A stretch of DNA of 40,833 nucleotides, taken from contig JBAXGN010000052.1 in assembly GCA_037139415.1 (NCBI GenBank), forward strand, positions 1 to 40,833. Direction: 5' to 3'. This stretch comes from Verrucomicrobiota bacterium (lineage in GTDB: Bacteria > Verrucomicrobiota > Verrucomicrobiia > Limisphaerales > Fontisphaeraceae). Position 1 is the stretch's first letter, and each line of letters starts with the position of its first letter. Below are positions 32,373-37,895 of this stretch, in pieces. The notes under the pieces are model-generated. The model had not been told where the DNA came from. It worked only from the letters and a program-made list of their open reading frames with translations, and did no database searches. The position numbers and the translations under genes were made by a program.

Positions 32373-33722
32373 ATGAACACCACCTGCAATCGCCGCCATT
32401 TCCTCCGCGCCTCCGGCCTGCTCGCCGCCGCGGGGACCATCCAATTCCTGCCCGGCCACGTGCTGGGCCTCAACGGCGCCACCGCGCCCAACGCGAAACT
32501 CAACCTCGCCGGCATCGGCGTCGGCGGTCAGGGCGGCAGCGACATTGCCCAGTTGGCCTCCGAAAACATTGTCGCCCTCTGCGATGTGGACTGGGATCGC
32601 GCGGCGGGGACCTTCAAGAAAAACCCCAACGCCAAAAAGTACAAAGACTACCGCAAGCTGCTCGACGAACAGAAAGACATTGACGCCGTGGTCGTCGCCA
32701 CGCCGGACCACATGCACGCGTTCGCCACCACGGCCGCCTTGCAACTCGGCAAACACGTCTATTGCGAGAAACCCCTCACCCACGACGTCTGGGAAGCCCG
32801 GCAAGTCGCCGAGCTGGCCCGCGCCAAGAAAGTCGCCACCCAAATGGGCAACCAGGGCCAGGCCTCCGAAGAAACCCGGCGCCTGTGCGAATTCATCTGG
32901 GATGGCGCCATCGGCCCGGCGCGCGAGGCGCACATCTGGACCGATCGCCCCGCCAAGGGCCTCTTCAAGGAATACTGGCCGCAAGGCATTGACAAACCCG
33001 CCGACACCCCGCCCCCGCCCGCCAACCTCGATTGGGATCTCTGGATCGGCAGCGCCCCCATGCGCCCCTACAACCCCGCCTATATGCCGTTCAAATGGCG
33101 CGGCTGGTGGGATTTCGGCACCGGCGCCCTCGGCGACATCGGCTGCCACGCCATGGACCCCGTTTTCCGCGCCCTGAAACTCAAAGTCCCGCTCAGCGTC
33201 CAGGCCTCCTCCAGCCGCGTCAACACCGAGGCCTATCCCGCCGCCTCCATGGTCACCTACGAATACCCGGCCCGGGGCGAATACCCGGCGCTCAAACTCA
33301 TCTGGTACGATGGCGGCCTGCGTCCCCCGCGCCCGCACGGCTTGCCGGAAGGCGAATTCATGGGCGACAACGGCCGCATGATCATCGGCGACAAAGGCTT
33401 CATCCTGGGCAACAAACTCTTCCCCCTCGAACGCCGCGCCGAATACCCCGAACCGGCCAAGACCATCCCGCGCTCCCCCGGCCATCACCTGGAATGGATC
33501 AACGCCTGCAAGGGCGGGCCTGCCGCCGGCTCCAACTTCGACTGGGCCGGACCGCTGACCGAAGCCGTGCTGCTGGGCAACGTCGCCCTGCGCGTGCAAC
33601 TGCGCGAAGACCTCACCCGCGCCAAGCTCCTGTGGAACTCCGAGAAACTCCAATTCACCAACCTCCCCGAAGCCAACGAATTCCTGCGGCGCAAATACCG
33701 GGACGGCTGGAGCCTGGGCTAA
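32373..33722 (+). CDS. Tat-exported Gfo/Idh/MocA-family oxidoreductase
   Basis: 449 residues. A Tat signal (CNRRHFLRASGLLAAAGTI) is followed by a Rossmann domain: LNLAGIGVGGQGGSD (about 45-60), ALCDVDWDRA, VVVATPDHMHAFATTAALQ, and the conserved GKHVYCEKPLTHDVWEAR with the Glu-Lys-Pro triplet. The C-terminal domain contains WWDFGTGALGDIGCHAMDP, typical of the exported verrucomicrobial and planctomycete subgroup (WHW-like). It likely oxidises a sugar or cyclitol using tightly bound NAD(P). It follows the agarase-like gene by 21 bp, so it may act on the released sugar. Confidence 0.93.
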   Translation: MNTTCNRRHFLRASGLLAAAGTIQFLPGHVLGLNGATAPNAKLNLAGIGVGGQGGSDIAQLASENIVALCDVDWDRAAGTFKKNPNAKKYKDYRKLLDEQKDIDAVVVATPDHMHAFATTAALQLGKHVYCEKPLTHDVWEARQVAELARAKKVATQMGNQGQASEETRRLCEFIWDGAIGPAREAHIWTDRPAKGLFKEYWPQGIDKPADTPPPPANLDWDLWIGSAPMRPYNPAYMPFKWRGWWDFGTGALGDIGCHAMDPVFRALKLKVPLSVQASSSRVNTEAYPAASMVTYEYPARGEYPALKLIWYDGGLRPPRPHGLPEGEFMGDNGRMIIGDKGFILGNKLFPLERRAEYPEPAKTIPRSPGHHLEWINACKGGPAAGSNFDWAGPLTEAVLLGNVALRVQLREDLTRAKLLWNSEKLQFTNLPEANEFLRRKYRDGWSLG

Positions 33723-33800
33723 GCCTGCGAATGGGGAAACTTTTGCAGAAATATTGCTGGGCAGAAAAATTATGGCCAGAAGATGGAAGCTGGGAGCCAC

Positions 33801-33900
33801 GGCTTTTTCCCATTGACCGGAGGGGCCTTTTTATGGATGGTCGGTGCTATGATAATAAACTGGCTGCAGAAAACGATGAACGAGCAGGGCGTTCAGGAAT
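33801..33900 (+). repeat. Repeated leader, copy 1
   Basis: 100 bp that align without gaps to 34851-34950, about 73% identical by hand count. In the frame of the following lipoprotein it reads F-F-P-L-T-G-G-A-F-L-W-M-V-G-A-M-I, then I-N-W-L and later M-N-E-Q-G-V-Q-E, matching copy 2. An upstream ATG (33772) begins M-A-R-R-W-K-L-G-A-T-A-F but is one base out of frame with it. The repeat stops shortly before a new MKR-type start codon in both places. Confidence 0.8.
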
Positions 33901-33914
33901 ACTGTTATGCATCC

Positions 33915-34544
33915 ATGAAACGCATCCTGTCATTCGGAGCGCTTGTGCTCGTGACCGCGAGTTGCAGCCGGGATAGTTCTCCGGTGGTGCCGAGTCTTTC
34001 TGGCCACTCGATCTTCGATACCCTTCTGTCGCGTCCAAGCGTCAGCGAACGAGTAAAGCAGGCCGAGCTCGACTTGCCAGGTGATGTTTACAAATCTGCC
34101 GGGGTGGGCACTGCTAGACCCATGCACTGGAATGATTCCCGCCAGACGCGAGAGCTCGACATTGGCCGTGAATTGCTGCGCGAGCTTCAACCTGCATTAA
34201 AGCGGATGAGTGTGAGCGATCTAATTTCAGCAATGAAGCTGTATCCCAGATTAACGCCCACTTGTCCAAGCGGGGTCGCCTATGTGCTCTATGGCGAAGG
34301 AAACAAGATGATTATTGATGAGATTGAGTCACGGCCTGTCCAGCAGTTGGCACCATTGAATTCATTGGCGAAAGATCAAAAGTACGAGGTATTCCTGAAC
34401 GGGACCTATTCCGAAGACCTTGGCATCCTGTGCCAAATGATTTTGAAAAAAAAGGAGTTGTGGTGCCCGATATCTAACCCCTGCGTGCAGGCGACGCCGG
34501 ATTGCGCTCTGCGCTCCGCTGTGCGGCTTTCGCCTTGTGGCTGA
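33915..34544 (+). CDS. Putative lipoprotein, unknown function
   Basis: 209 residues from the ATG at 33915 (MKRILSFGALVLVTASCSRD), chosen because it gives a clean lipoprotein signal with lipobox V-T-A-S-C and Cys17. The frame is open for another 44 codons upstream through the repeated leader, so a longer product is possible. The mature part is mixed helix/strand with no family I recognise (ELDIGRELLRELQPALKRM, SGVAYVLYGEGNKMIIDEIE). The last 24 or so residues are encoded by the hairpin at 34472-34556 and are Cys-rich, probably not original. Base composition is visibly more AT-rich than the neighbouring housekeeping genes, in keeping with acquired DNA. Confidence 0.6.
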   Translation: MKRILSFGALVLVTASCSRDSSPVVPSLSGHSIFDTLLSRPSVSERVKQAELDLPGDVYKSAGVGTARPMHWNDSRQTRELDIGRELLRELQPALKRMSVSDLISAMKLYPRLTPTCPSGVAYVLYGEGNKMIIDEIESRPVQQLAPLNSLAKDQKYEVFLNGTYSEDLGILCQMILKKKELWCPISNPCVQATPDCALRSAVRLSPCG

Positions 34545-34556
34545 GTGCAGTTAAAT
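34472..34556 (+). other. Possible attC-like recombination site
   Basis: The 85-bp stretch begins ATCTAAC (fits RYYYAAC) and ends GTTAAAT (fits GTTRRRY), and these ends are inverted repeats at 6 of 7 positions. Inside there are further pairings: GGCGA with TCGCC, and GCCG with CGGC. It lies at the end of one small gene and 10 bp before the next, where an integron cassette junction would be. No integrase gene is in the window and the inner boxes are weak, so this is only a candidate. Confidence 0.3.
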
Positions 34557-34566
34557 TCTAACGATC

Positions 34567-34836
34567 ATGATTACATATCCGGACGGAAGGATGGTGTGCA
34601 TTGGCGACAAGGTTCTCATGAACCGAGGCCGCGAGTCTGGAACTATCCATGCTATTATCGACTCAACAGAGGCGATGGCAGCATGGGGCCACGAGGAGAC
34701 GGGCTTGGTCATTGACGTTGCCACGAGTGGCTTGAACTTCTGGCCCGAGTGGTCTTTGAGGAGTTTTAACGACGAGATTCGATTTATTTCCAGCCCCATG
34801 GCCGGACCAGATGTTTCAGCAGCCGACAACGCATGA
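34567..34836 (+). CDS. Small protein, unknown function
   Basis: 89 residues (MITYPDGRMVCIGDKVLMNR ...). The opening I-T-Y-P-D-G-x-x-V-x-x-G-D-x-V and the following G-T-I-H-A-I-I-D-S resemble a group of small beta-rich proteins often found as orphan or cassette genes (from memory). A middle part reads EETGLVIDVATSGLNFW. No signal peptide. The stop codon overlaps the next small frame (ATGA at 34833). It stands between the attC-like hairpin and repeated-leader copy 2, in more AT-rich DNA. Confidence 0.6.
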   Translation: MITYPDGRMVCIGDKVLMNRGRESGTIHAIIDSTEAMAAWGHEETGLVIDVATSGLNFWPEWSLRSFNDEIRFISSPMAGPDVSAADNA

Positions 34837-34970
34837 GCAGGAATGCCAAGGCCTTTTTCCGATTGACCGGTCGGGCGTTCCGGTGGAATGTCAGCGCCAT
34901 GATAACCAACTGGCCAACGGCAACCATGAACGGGAAGGGCGTTCAAGAAGACTGGTCACCTACAAAATGA
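34833..34970 (+). CDS. 45-residue frame over repeated-leader copy 2
   Basis: Begins MSRNAKAFFRLTGRAFRWNV and ends in GVQEDWSPTK. It overlaps the stop of the gene before it and the start of the gene after it, both by ATGA, so ribosomes could pass through all three. The peptide matches that read from copy 1 (FFxLTGxAFxW, AMI, NW, MN, GVQE). It may be a real small peptide, or simply an open frame in a repeat that helps coupled translation. Confidence 0.4.
   Translation: MSRNAKAFFRLTGRAFRWNVSAMITNWPTATMNGKGVQEDWSPTK
34851..34950 (+). repeat. Repeated leader, copy 2
   Basis: Aligned without gaps to 33801-33900. It starts GCCTTTTTCCGATTGACCGG and ends GGGCGTTCAAGAAG. Like copy 1, it stands just upstream of an MKR-type signal-bearing small protein. 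Confidence 0.8.
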
Positions 34971-35392
34971 AGCGCGCCATTATCGTGGTTTTTATGCTGG
35001 GTCTTTCCGGCCTGTTTCTACTGGGCTGGGGCATGTTTGGAGATCATGCCTCGTTCCAGACCGGGCTTGACCAGTACGAGGGCTTACCTCCCAAAGCCTC
35101 GGACATCACGGTTTACCAGAACAAGAATATCAGCGGTATTTTCGTCGCAGATTTCAAGATCACTGAGCCTGATTTTCGTTCCTTCGCCGCTGAGAAGCAT
35201 TGGCCTGTTCAGCCAATATCTGGTTCAACATTTGTCTTTCAAGCTAGGGCTTTCCATGAAGATCGGGCGAATGACAAGAAAGTAATCACTGATGGACTTG
35301 TTTATTCGCAGAGAGCCGCAAACGGCGGTGGTGTGACTGTAACCTACGATCGCAAGGATAGTCGTGCATACATTGACAGTAGTTCCCGATAA
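34967..35392 (+). CDS. Small membrane-anchored or secreted protein, unknown function
   Basis: 141 residues from the ATG at 34967, which overlaps the TGA of the 45-residue frame. The N-terminus MKRAIIVVFMLGLSGLFLLG is a signal anchor or signal peptide. The rest (ASDITVYQNKNISGIFVADF, ITEPDFRSFAAEKHWP, VTVTYDRKDSRAYID) is a small soluble domain I do not recognise. It is the third of three coupled small genes. The following 168 bp up to the IS110 element hold no gene that I can support. Confidence 0.6.
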   Translation: MKRAIIVVFMLGLSGLFLLGWGMFGDHASFQTGLDQYEGLPPKASDITVYQNKNISGIFVADFKITEPDFRSFAAEKHWPVQPISGSTFVFQARAFHEDRANDKKVITDGLVYSQRAANGGGVTVTYDRKDSRAYIDSSSR

Positions 35393-35527
35393 TACGGCGA
35401 ACAAAGCGGCTGCACCAAATGCCGCGATAGCGCTCTAGTTTCATTCGGCAGACCTCTTGCTCGGCGCACCCATTGCCGCAACCACCTTCGGGGTTGGCCG
35501 GGCACGGGAGACGGGGGACTCAAGGTG

Positions 35528-35555
35528 GAATTGGCCCCATTGCCCCTGCCAATTC
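35528..35555 (+). other. Hairpin at the IS110 insertion site
   Basis: Inverted repeat GAATTGGC (35528-35535) and GCCAATTC (35548-35555) with a 12-nt loop. The left flank recognised by the bridge RNA (ATTCGACCC, 35552-35560) starts inside the 3' arm, so the element inserted at the foot of this hairpin. Confidence 0.7.
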
Positions 35556-35573
35556 GACCCTGTATAGCTGCTC

Positions 35574-35815
35574 CGGACTTATTCACCGGCTGGGCGGGAA
35601 ACGTCCAGAGCATTCCCCAGCCCGGACGGTGAATAAGTCCGTCCGCGAAACCGATTTTATTATGCTAACTTTATTCCGGCTCCGGTACGAACATTCGACC
35701 CTGCGCGCCCGACGCGCTCAGCCCAAAGTCTCGACCGGAGCCGGAACTCGGACACGGATACGCATCCTCAGGTGCCGACGCCCGACGTCTAGCACTATAC
35801 GATCTGCGACCCGTG
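35574..35815 (+). ncRNA. Candidate IS110 bridge RNA
   Basis: Three hairpins in the transposase leader. Hairpin 1: a 15-bp stem (35574-35588 with 35627-35641) and an inner 6-bp stem. Hairpin 2: a 13-bp stem (35674-35686 with 35734-35746), then facing internal-loop strands 35691-35702 and 35718-35730, then a GCGCG stem with a CCCGA loop. Hairpin 3: stem 35753-35757 with 35811-35815, an internal loop, and inner stems with a second CCCGA loop. Hairpin 2 behaves as the target-binding loop: its left strand matches the left flank for 11 nt and its right strand complements the right flank for 8 nt. Hairpin 3 behaves as the donor-binding loop: 8-nt and 6-nt matches to the element ends. Exact RNA ends are unknown. 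Confidence 0.85.
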
Positions 35816-35837
35816 ACCAAACTCAGAAAGGCATCGT

Positions 35838-37115
35838 ATGAACGACCTAAATATAGCTCACCTCTCCCAAGCGGAAAACCCCGAATTCGTGGCTTTCATC
35901 GGCCTCGATTGGGGTGACGAAAAACATGAGCTGGCCTTGGTGGCTGGCCAACAGCCCATGGAGTGCCGCACCCTCAGCAATACTCCGGAAACGCTGCATG
36001 CCTGGTTGGAAGAACTGGGCCAGCGGTTCCAAGGACAGCCGGTGGCGCTGGCCGTGGAAACCAGTCGTGGTCCACTGATCCATGTGTTCTGTGCCTATCC
36101 CTGGCTGACGATCTATCCCATTCACCCGGCTACCAGCGCCAAGTATCGGGCTGCATTCAAGCCCTCGGGTGCCAAAGATGACCGTCCGGATGCGATCATC
36201 CAATTGGAACTGCTGCGCCTCCATCGCGCCAAACTGCGCCCGCTCCAACCCCAGGAGGAAGCCACCCGTCAACTGGCGGGCATGGTGGAGTTACGCCGCG
36301 ACGCGGTCGATCGGCGCACCCAAGTCCTCAACCAACTGACCAGCCTGTTGAAATCGTATTATCCCCAGGCCCTGTGCTTGATCGGACCGGAGTTGTCCAC
36401 CAAACTAGCCCTGGATTTTCTGGACCGTTGGCCCGATCCCTTGGCGCTTAAAATAGCCCGCCCCAGCACGCTGAAAAGTTTCTATTACCAGCATGCGGTG
36501 CGTTCGGAAGCGTTGGTCGATGAACGACTGGCGGTCCATAAAAATCTGCGGCCACTGACGACGGAACTGGCCACCCTGGAGCCGGCGCGGATGCAGTTGG
36601 CGCTGTTGGTGGCCCAACTGCGGGTGTTTCAAAAACATATTGCGGGCATGGAAAAGCAAATTGACGCCCGGTTCAGTCAGCATCCCGAAGCCGAGCTGTT
36701 CCGGCATCTGCCGGGGGCTGGCCCCGCGCTCCGGCCGCGGTTGTTGGTGGCGTTTGGGGAGGACCGCACGCTGTATCCAGATCCCGCGGCGTTGCAAAAA
36801 TATGTGGGGGTCGCGCCCGTCGTGGAAAAGAGCGGTAAACAGTGTTGGATTCACTGGCGCTGGCGGGCCCCCCGTTTTCTGCGCCAAACGTTCATCGAGT
36901 GGGCGGTTCACACCGTGGCGAATTCGGCGTGGGCCAAAGCTTATTATGACCACATGCTGGCCCACGGCAAACGCCGCCAAGTCATCTTGCGTGCGCTCGC
37001 CTTCAAATGGATTCGCATTCTCTGGAAATGCTGGCAGACCCGCACGCCCTATGATGAAGCACGTTACCTGGCGGCTTTAGCTCGACGCAAGAGCCCTTAC
37101 GCGGTAAACAAATAA
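35838..37115 (+). CDS. IS110-family transposase (DEDD recombinase)
   Basis: 425 residues. The N-terminal RuvC-like DEDD domain has Asp24 (FIGLDWGD), a Glu near 74 (AVETSRG) and the Asp pair of SGAKDDRPDA (about 112-120). A helical coiled-coil region follows (about 130-280). The C-terminal transposase_20 domain has the helix-hairpin-helix-like PGAGPALRPRLLVAFG and the APVVEKSGKQ motif with the likely nucleophile Ser332. Full length and with no frameshift, so the element may be active. A purine-rich AGAAAGG lies about 7 bp before the ATG. The enzyme should use the bridge RNA encoded just upstream to pair donor and target DNA. Confidence 0.95.
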   Translation: MNDLNIAHLSQAENPEFVAFIGLDWGDEKHELALVAGQQPMECRTLSNTPETLHAWLEELGQRFQGQPVALAVETSRGPLIHVFCAYPWLTIYPIHPATSAKYRAAFKPSGAKDDRPDAIIQLELLRLHRAKLRPLQPQEEATRQLAGMVELRRDAVDRRTQVLNQLTSLLKSYYPQALCLIGPELSTKLALDFLDRWPDPLALKIARPSTLKSFYYQHAVRSEALVDERLAVHKNLRPLTTELATLEPARMQLALLVAQLRVFQKHIAGMEKQIDARFSQHPEAELFRHLPGAGPALRPRLLVAFGEDRTLYPDPAALQKYVGVAPVVEKSGKQCWIHWRWRAPRFLRQTFIEWAVHTVANSAWAKAYYDHMLAHGKRRQVILRALAFKWIRILWKCWQTRTPYDEARYLAALARRKSPYAVNK

Positions 37116-37174
37116 TGGTGACTTTTATGCAAATTCCCTTGCGCAGCCAGGCTCAGGTGTTGGGCTGGAGTCCG

Positions 37175-37191
37175 GAATCCCTTTGGGATTC
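37175..37191 (+). other. Short hairpin beyond the IS right end
   Basis: GAATCCC-TTT-GGGATTC, a perfect 7-bp stem, 16 bp to the right of the mapped element end, hence in host DNA. It also contains CT-TTGGG, which partly resembles the right target; I judged the site at 37160 the better match. Confidence 0.5.
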
Positions 37192-37304
37192 TTCCGATCC
37201 ACCTGGGCGATTGGCTGATTTCTTTATCCCTGAGGTTGGTTTTTGTTCGGCAAGGATGGCATGACGTGTTCGGCAGCACTTCCAGAACTTCACTCCAATC
37301 TTCT

Positions 37305-37577
37305 TATTTTCGGCCTGATGCCCGGAACTTTCCGGGTGGAACGGGCTCCATTCCGGGTAGAACGGAGTCCATTCCGGGGGAATTAGCCTCCAATTCGGGG
37401 GAATCGGCGTCCATTCCGGGGGAATCGGCGTCCATTCCGGGGGAAATGGCTTCCGATTCGGGGGAATTTAAGCCCATTTCGGGGGAATTGGCCTCCAATT
37501 CGGGTGAAACGGAGTCCAATTCGGGTGAATTGAGGTCCGTTTCGGGTGAAACGGAGTCCGATTCAGTCGGCCTAAAT
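37305..37577 (+). repeat. 21-bp tandem array (array 3)
   Basis: Thirteen units of exactly 21 bp starting at 37305, clearest from 37347 on, with consensus TCCAATTCGGGGGAATYGGCG. On the plus strand they read as heptads S-I-P-G-E-S-A, S-N-S-G-E-T-E and similar, and the frame is open from 37236 to 37673. The pattern (Asn/Ile at 2, Ser/Pro at 3, Gly at 4, Glu at 5) is close to array 2 units such as Q-N-P-G-E-T-G. No Fn3-like gene follows here. 37578-37733 contains only a small imperfect hairpin (AACCCG/CGGGTT). Confidence 0.9.
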
Positions 37578-37733
37578 ATGGCGTGTCCGCAATCCTTTTA
37601 TTCGAACCCGTTGAAAATAAGCGGGTTGGAAACTTTTAACCATTTTAACCAGAATTCCCCGGTGGATTCATAGAGAAAGTCAACATAGATGGCCCTCGAC
37701 TAATCGCCGGGGGTTCGCAATATTGGACGTCCG

Positions 37734-37895
37734 ATGAAGCGAGTGTGTGTGCAATGCGGTTCGAATCCCGGTTTTGCGCCCGTCTATCTGGAGGCGGCGC
37801 GTGAGCTGGGCCGCGTGCTGGGCCGCCAGCGCCTGGCCGGTTATCATCCGCCGCAGGTGGATAAGTGGATGGAGAAAAACAAGGTCACGACATGA
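37734..37895 (+). pseudogene. LOG-family (TIGR00730) gene remnant with a large internal deletion
   Basis: A 53-codon frame. Its first 33 or so residues (MKRVCVQCGSNPGFAPVYLE, then AARELGRVLGRQ) are the unmistakable start of LOG-type nucleoside 5'-monophosphate phosphoribohydrolases. It then jumps to GYHPPQVDKWMEKNKV, like a LOG C-terminus. The middle, with the GGG-x-x-G-x-M-G and PGG-x-GT-x-x-E active-site motifs, is absent, so the product cannot be active. The stop overlaps the next gene's start (ATGA), which shows that the two formed an operon before the deletion. Confidence 0.75.

Follow-up and report, generated by a model that had tools for sequence, protein, structure and literature searches.

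A dispersed element ending in an integron core site, probably a promoter-attI unit, precedes unrelated small genes in a Verrucomicrobiota genome

Integrons are usually described as having one integrase, one promoter and a single attI beside intI, with strong expression of the attI-proximal cassettes (available text of PMC8618304 and, except for the position of attI, of PMC8876359). The closest described relative of the locus reported here is the platform of sedentary chromosomal integrons (intI-Pc-attI), in which the promoter reads into an attI ending in GTTRRRY and each cassette consists of one small gene followed by attC. A similar order was found here, with a putative promoter, a core site and small genes, some of them with attC-like tails; in two related genomes, G013 and G199, intI has the element or a counterpart of it just upstream, in divergent orientation. 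Unlike a sedentary platform, however, the genome studied carries dozens of scattered copies without an adjoining intI. Clusters of attC lacking an integrase (CALIN) likewise hold cassettes without a neighbouring intI, but here every short group opens with its own putative promoter and attI, and complete attC sites are few per group. In the delta-attI-type cassettes of class 1 and 2 integrons, an attI-derived end replaces attC and keeps the core, which may correspond to the succession of a 5' half-attC and the putative attI seen by eye at several places in this genome. The published sites of that type keep mostly 14-18 nt of attI, with one type keeping 244 nt (PMC12901181, in the part available), whereas the scattered chromosomal copies of this genome retain the entire putative Pc-attI. 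Promoter-bearing ORF-less cassettes deliver a promoter within the cassette system (PMC6557892, available text); in contrast, the putative promoter unit described here lies left of the core and shares homology with the intI-side region. Finally, ORF-11 of attI1 is a short attI frame whose stop is supplied by core positions 3-5 (PMC8876359, available text). A short frame that can likewise take its stop from the cassette core is present in our element, but it is not conserved and contains many early stops. The literature searched contained no account of attI or Pc-attI units dispersed in large number through one genome; most subscription papers lay outside that search, and the absence of such an account is thus unproven.

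Two copies in the window and the dispersed element

The window, that is, the whole stretch of DNA analysed, comprises 40,833 nt (contig JBAXGN010000052.1 of assembly GCA_037139415.1, forward strand, from a Verrucomicrobiota bacterium of the order Limisphaerales). An earlier note, made from the letters alone, had reported a 100-bp leader repeated at about 73% identity without gaps before two small signal-bearing proteins. The ungapped copies were recovered at 33803-33904 and 34853-34954, with 75% identity across 102 nt. MKR-type starts directly 3' of both (33915 and 34967) were also found, as were the two ATGA junctions of the second copy: on one side an 89-aa ORF ends in a stop that overlaps the ATG at 34833, and on the other the ATG at 34967 shares bases with the stop at 34970. 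The extent of the repeat needed revision, since the conserved unit is a DNA unit of about 107 bp whose right edge lies a few bases further, at the core site (33904-33910 in copy 1 and 34954-34960 in copy 2). The features, all on the + strand, are as follows.

33804..33910, +: copy 1, probable Pc-attI element (model R1, 92.8 bits)
33813-33818 and 33836-33841, +: putative -35 (TTGACC) and -10 (GATGGT) hexamers of copy 1, counted over 45 copies
33878-33894 and 33904-33910, +: imperfect inverted repeat and core site GTTATGC of copy 1
33915..34544, +: first cassette gene, 209-aa lipoprotein-like product without a Pfam family; overlaps the attC at its 3' end
34472..34556, +: attC-like site ATCTAAC...GTTAAAT closing the first cassette, below the threshold of the strict detector
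34567..34836, +: second cassette gene, 89 aa, no Pfam family
34822..34850, +: possible attC 5' half right before copy 2, recognised by eye against other tails, unscored
34853..34960, +: copy 2, probable Pc-attI element (model R1, 85.9 bits)
34863-34868 and 34886-34891, +: putative -35 (TTGACC) and -10 (GAATGT) hexamers of copy 2
34928-34944 and 34954-34960, +: inverted repeat and altered core GGTCACC of copy 2
34967..35392, +: third cassette gene, 141 aa, hydrophobic N-terminal segment, no Pfam family
35396..35437, +: attC 5' half (GGCGAAC...) behind the third gene, recognised by eye
35838..37115, +: IS110-family transposase gene just past the cassettes (NF033542, 154.4 bits; cut-off 140)

The attC-like site at 34472..34556 is a weak example, with R''/R' pairing of 6/7 and poor L arms, and a 3' half for the site at 35396..35437 was not found downstream. 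Copy 1 starts 80 nt after what we take to be a Gfo/Idh/MocA-like chromosomal gene and has no cassette gene on its left. IS110/IS1111 elements target attC. On the 3' side of the IS110 transposase, a nine-copy direct-repeat family with 21-nt spacing (37309-37581) sits in an ORF rich in PGE/SGE-type repeats.

A six-frame search of the window's own genome (G000) with the copy-2 peptide, which the earlier note had proposed, gave 47 matches (tblastn, E<=10), far above chance. With the sequence-only DNA model R1, 67 matches were obtained at E<=0.1, of which 63, on 44 contigs, had E<1e-6. Fifty-seven matches were at least 70 nt long, and 22 of these were separated from each end of their contig by 5 kb or more, indicating that the copies are not one broken array; many other copies lay near contig ends. 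Several copies were nearly identical to each other.

Omission of two incomplete copies from the 47 left an alignment of 45, whose consensus is a single unit of about 107 bp, TTTTCGCATTGACCCGAGGGGCCTTTTTAGGGATGGTCGGCACCATGATAACCAACTGGCCACCGGAAACCATGAACGAAAAGGGCGTTCAAGAATACTGTTAGGC. Its left edge was sharp (identity 0.43 outside and 0.83 inside), as was its right edge, where identity dropped from 0.84 (the 20 nt up to and including GTT) through 0.64 (the 4 nt that follow) to 0.37 (the 20 nt beyond these). The right edge is GTTRGGC-like, with GTT in 32/45 copies, an exact GTTAGGC in 7 and an altered core in 13; it is the integron core site GTTRRRY, in which recombination occurs between the first and second base (PMC8876359, in the text available). 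The hexamer TTGACC was present in 41/45 copies, separated by a 17-nt spacer from GATGGT (29/45) or a close variant, and these promoter-like hexamers sit 60-90 nt upstream of the core. The copies also retain an inverted repeat, GAACG-N7-CGTTC, at a distance of 9 nt from the core on its upstream side. The suggestion of a mobile expression leader was thus borne out as far as promoter-like hexamers in nearly all copies are concerned; the activity of the promoter and the mobility of the unit are putative only. We also considered a promoter cassette with its own G/TT left edge and rejected it, as the base left of the element was, by eye, not consistently G. Longer common left flanks were seen within two sub-families, one on contigs C35, C277, C110 and C59 and the other on C81, C174 and C147 (CTGAAACGATTTTCCAGCAACGAC and AATCAATAACCAAACCACAGGCC), so the left end of the element may differ between lineages.

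Genes and attC sites behind the copies

The earlier note had made its proposal depend on further copies that stand before genes. Such copies exist and are tied to gene starts: among 52 ORFs read after copies, the start lay a median of 12 nt past the core, and 47 began within 40 nt of it. Judged by eye, these ORFs encode unrelated small proteins, many with signal or membrane sequences. Ten ORFs were scanned against Pfam (nine directly after copies and the second cassette gene of the window), and families were assigned to five at E<=0.01, namely PNPOx_N, DUF1801, CdiI_3, DUF4279 and, below its cut-off, Thioredoxin. None was assigned at that threshold to any of the window's three cassette genes. 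The gene following the copy at C78:29702 (locus L133) encodes a CdiI_3-type immunity protein (E 2.6e-16). The earlier idea that small exported proteins are shuffled at a recombination site came close: the copies look like attI-type sites followed by unrelated cassettes, many of which, to the eye, appear to encode signal-bearing or membrane proteins.

Many tails behind the stop codons resembled attC, among them those at C78:31245-31370 (R''/R' 7/7), on C277 and, in G013, on C421 (score 26). With the strict detector (score>=19), attC sites were detected in 7 of 69 gene tails and 1 of 156 control ORF tails (Fisher p=0.0012), a threshold chosen after the score table had been seen. By genome, these were 4/54 tails of the window's genome and 3/15 of G013, with controls of 1/151 and 0/5. 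At thresholds of 14, 15, 16, 17, 18, 19 and 20, the tails gave 18, 13, 10, 8, 7, 7 and 4 of 69 and the controls 29, 19, 12, 7, 3, 1 and 1 of 156, so that no excess was present at thresholds of 14-16 (18/69 vs 29/156 at 14). With an initial loose attC search and with a loosened finder, hits were likewise not clearly more frequent in these tails than in those of control ORFs. A complete attC by the strict detector was thus absent from 62/69 tails; two strict sites were found on C78, and most groups had one or none. What an EM motif search recovered from the 54 tails was not attC but a REP-like repeat that occurs genome-wide.

Many more of the tails listed carried, by eye, only the 5' half of attC. 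At C118:19189, C78:29702, C35:5819 and C287:533 and at a degenerate copy on C189, such a half follows a gene and the element follows directly (by eye). The lost 3' halves of five half-attC sites were searched for and not found within 3.6-4.4 kb downstream.

Integrases and attI regions in related genomes

The window's own genome (98% complete) gave no match to the integron integrase profile TIGR02249 over the cut-off, and with the G013 integrase as query only two Xer-like genes were found in it. These recombinases (C101 and C32) were not taken as intI because their TIGR02249 matches were below the cut-off. A divergent intI beside the site, as in other integrons, was thus not found in this genome; such a gene is present beside the homologous region in G013 and beside the attI of G199 and of G282.

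Among 320 genomes of the order, R1 matched two at E<=1e-5, the window's own and G013 (MAG Loclat_bin-16082, an uncultured Verrucomicrobia bacterium), which encodes an IntI of 425 aa (332.7 bits; cut-off 265). A second model, R2, was built from 16 dispersed G013 copies with the intI-side site left out of the training. In the G013 genome it gave 43 matches at E<=0.1, including 39 below 1e-4, and it matched the intI contig (C120:2053-2127, - strand) at a genome-wide E of 6e-10. This match lies 111 nt upstream of intI, is divergent and reads away from it, which is the position of a Pc. It spans positions 6-79 of the 119 of R2, and the inverted repeat and core are absent there.

Some further features of G013 were noted. 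The IntI ORF on C120 (2238-3515) has about 110 aa ahead of the profile match, and the attI belonging to it seems altered or lost. On C213 (1338-3497), a tyrosine recombinase adjoining a presumably IS91-like ORF has a copy of the element, with cassettes, next to it. This recombinase gave the other TIGR02249 match in G013; it probably belongs to an IS91-like element and was not used as evidence because of its sub-cut-off score (175.9 bits; cut-off 265) and this neighbour.

We then turned to the remainder of the order, where intI was found at E<=1e-70 in 99 of 313 genomes (97 over the cut-off). Thirty intI loci were fetched, of which 25 were used and 5 dropped for too little upstream DNA, and the regions were scored with a weight matrix derived from the 3'-terminal 21 nt of the copies in the window's genome. 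At a score of at least 14, the matrix matched 4 of the 25 intI-adjacent regions (L154, L155, L157 and L162), 0/50 coding controls and 0/500 shuffles; the other 21 lacked a match at this score. The 3'-end site of G199 is CATTCAAGAACAATGTTCGGC, compared with CGTTCAAGAATACTGTTAGGC in the window's genome. R1 itself gave nothing convincing in seven intI-bearing genomes (best E 0.017), since the promoter part differs between lineages.

When the Pc-attI of G199 was searched in its own genome, two extra copies (91% and 88%) were found, and no intI was found at either; the copy on C105 is followed by a cassette-like gene and an attC-like site. The Pc-attI of G282 had one extra copy (97%), which forms part of a 222-bp block at 96% identity reaching 27 nt into the intI profile match. 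This copy, on C205, is without intI and is followed by a cassette-like unit with an attC-like site. Extra intI-less copies were thus present in 2/2 genomes probed with their own attI, which suggests, from these two, that such copies may be widespread among genomes of the order and have merely been overlooked.

Taken together, we consider that each copy is an integron platform reduced to Pc and attI, without intI, with gene cassettes following (probability about 0.85). This reading rests on the gene starts directly after the core together with some clear attC sites, on the divergent region that the model of G013 copies finds upstream of the G013 intI, on the match of the 3' end to intI-adjacent attI in 4/25 relatives, and on the extra intI-less attI copies of G199 and G282. 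Counting against it are the missing intI in the window's genome, the few complete attC sites with no enrichment at looser thresholds, the incomplete homology on the intI side of G013, the 21 intI-adjacent regions without a 3'-end match and the altered core of copy 2. The identity of the unit as Pc-attI with following cassettes is well supported; the ingredient is an ordinary one for integrons, and its arrangement is unusual.

From this we infer promoter activity, recombination by IntI and action of IntI in trans. An integron integrase encoded elsewhere, now or in the past, would integrate circular cassettes between the G and the TT of the core, and the promoter in the element would read into whichever small gene had been captured. 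The kept ATG of the short frame could aid translation, as ORF-11 does in attI1. Precedent suggests that the platforms may have spread partly by fusion into unusual delta-attI-type cassettes and partly by plain duplication of a fragment comprising the intI end, Pc and attI. The settings are mixed: some copies stand behind a 5' half-attC, copy 1 of the window stands behind a chromosomal gene, and in G282 a block was duplicated. IntI is also able to insert cassettes at non-classical attG sites (work cited in the available text of PMC12901181).

More tentatively, and at less than even odds, the system may work as a distributed integron, in which a promoter-attI unit disperses and one integrase acting in trans loads dozens of landing pads. 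Each pad would then be expressed at once from its own promoter, as opposed to one attI with a strong first position. Dozens of promoter-attI units per chromosome would let many captured genes be expressed simultaneously and would make the capture of cassettes independent of where the integrase gene lies. The Pc-attI also offers a sequence handle for finding cassettes where few attC sites are complete.

Other explanations of the copies

The first competitor, to which we give roughly one chance in three, is a cassette end of the delta-attI type, either gene-less or hybrid, in which Pc-attI replaces the 3' half of attC and moves within cassettes with no fixed landing site. Published cassettes of this type recombine with IntI1 (PMC12901181, available part), several copies here stand (by eye) directly behind a 5' half-attC that follows a gene, and the matching 3' half was missing downstream in all five places searched. 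The 80-nt distance of copy 1 from a chromosomal gene, with no cassette gene to its left, does not fit this explanation, nor do the many solitary copies. Moreover, the 222-bp block of G282 takes in the start of intI, indicating duplication and not a cassette.

A little less probable, and in our judgement unlikely, is a graveyard of cassettes, that is, functionless relics of arrays broken by rearrangement and insertion sequences after the loss of intI. The lack of a detectable intI, the many half-attC tails, the altered core in 13 of the 45 copies and the IS110 element adjoining the window's array speak for such relics. However, the hexamers and the neighbourhood of the core are conserved while both flanks are random, and 22 copies lie far inside contigs. 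The near-identity of several copies indicates that some of the multiplication looks recent.

The short frame itself had led the earlier note to propose a coupled small peptide. As a conserved peptide this did not hold up, for an in-frame stop lies between the ATG and the core in 17/45 copies. Entropy in that frame was flat over codon positions (45 copies), and the synonymous fraction was not above that of frame 2 (0.27 vs 0.26 in the window's genome; 0.33 vs 0.40 in G013). A conserved protein was ruled out by the early stops and the lack of codon-level conservation. Yet the ATG was kept in 42/45 of the window genome's own copies and in 16/16 G013 copies, and because of this a weaker role like that of ORF-11 is possible, in which the frame from the ATG to the core is translated as a leader and recruits ribosomes for the cassette genes. 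A core reading GTTAG would end the frame at TAG, core positions 3-5, as in ORF-11 (PMC8876359, available text). Given the stops and the synonymous fractions, and a ribosome-binding motif that is not obvious by eye, we regard such a leader as improbable.

The check for covariation that the earlier note had proposed did not favour a structured RNA: the pairs of the inverted repeat covary no more than shuffles do. An Rfam match was not found within 33600-37800 of the window at E<=0.5, and an RNA family was rejected on these two results. An unrelated dispersed intergenic repeat (REP-like or an RNA element) preceding genes by chance is very improbable. Other dispersed palindromic repeats do occur near copies in this genome, but the element has no Rfam family and no covariation in its hairpin, keeps a fixed orientation and distance to gene starts, and is homologous to the region beside the G013 intI.

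A palindromic repeat found throughout the genome (CTCTCTGGCACCCGCTCCGGGGTGCATTCG) follows many genes, including the cassette genes at loci L107, L112 and L134, and a hairpin related to it lies immediately left of some copies of the element.
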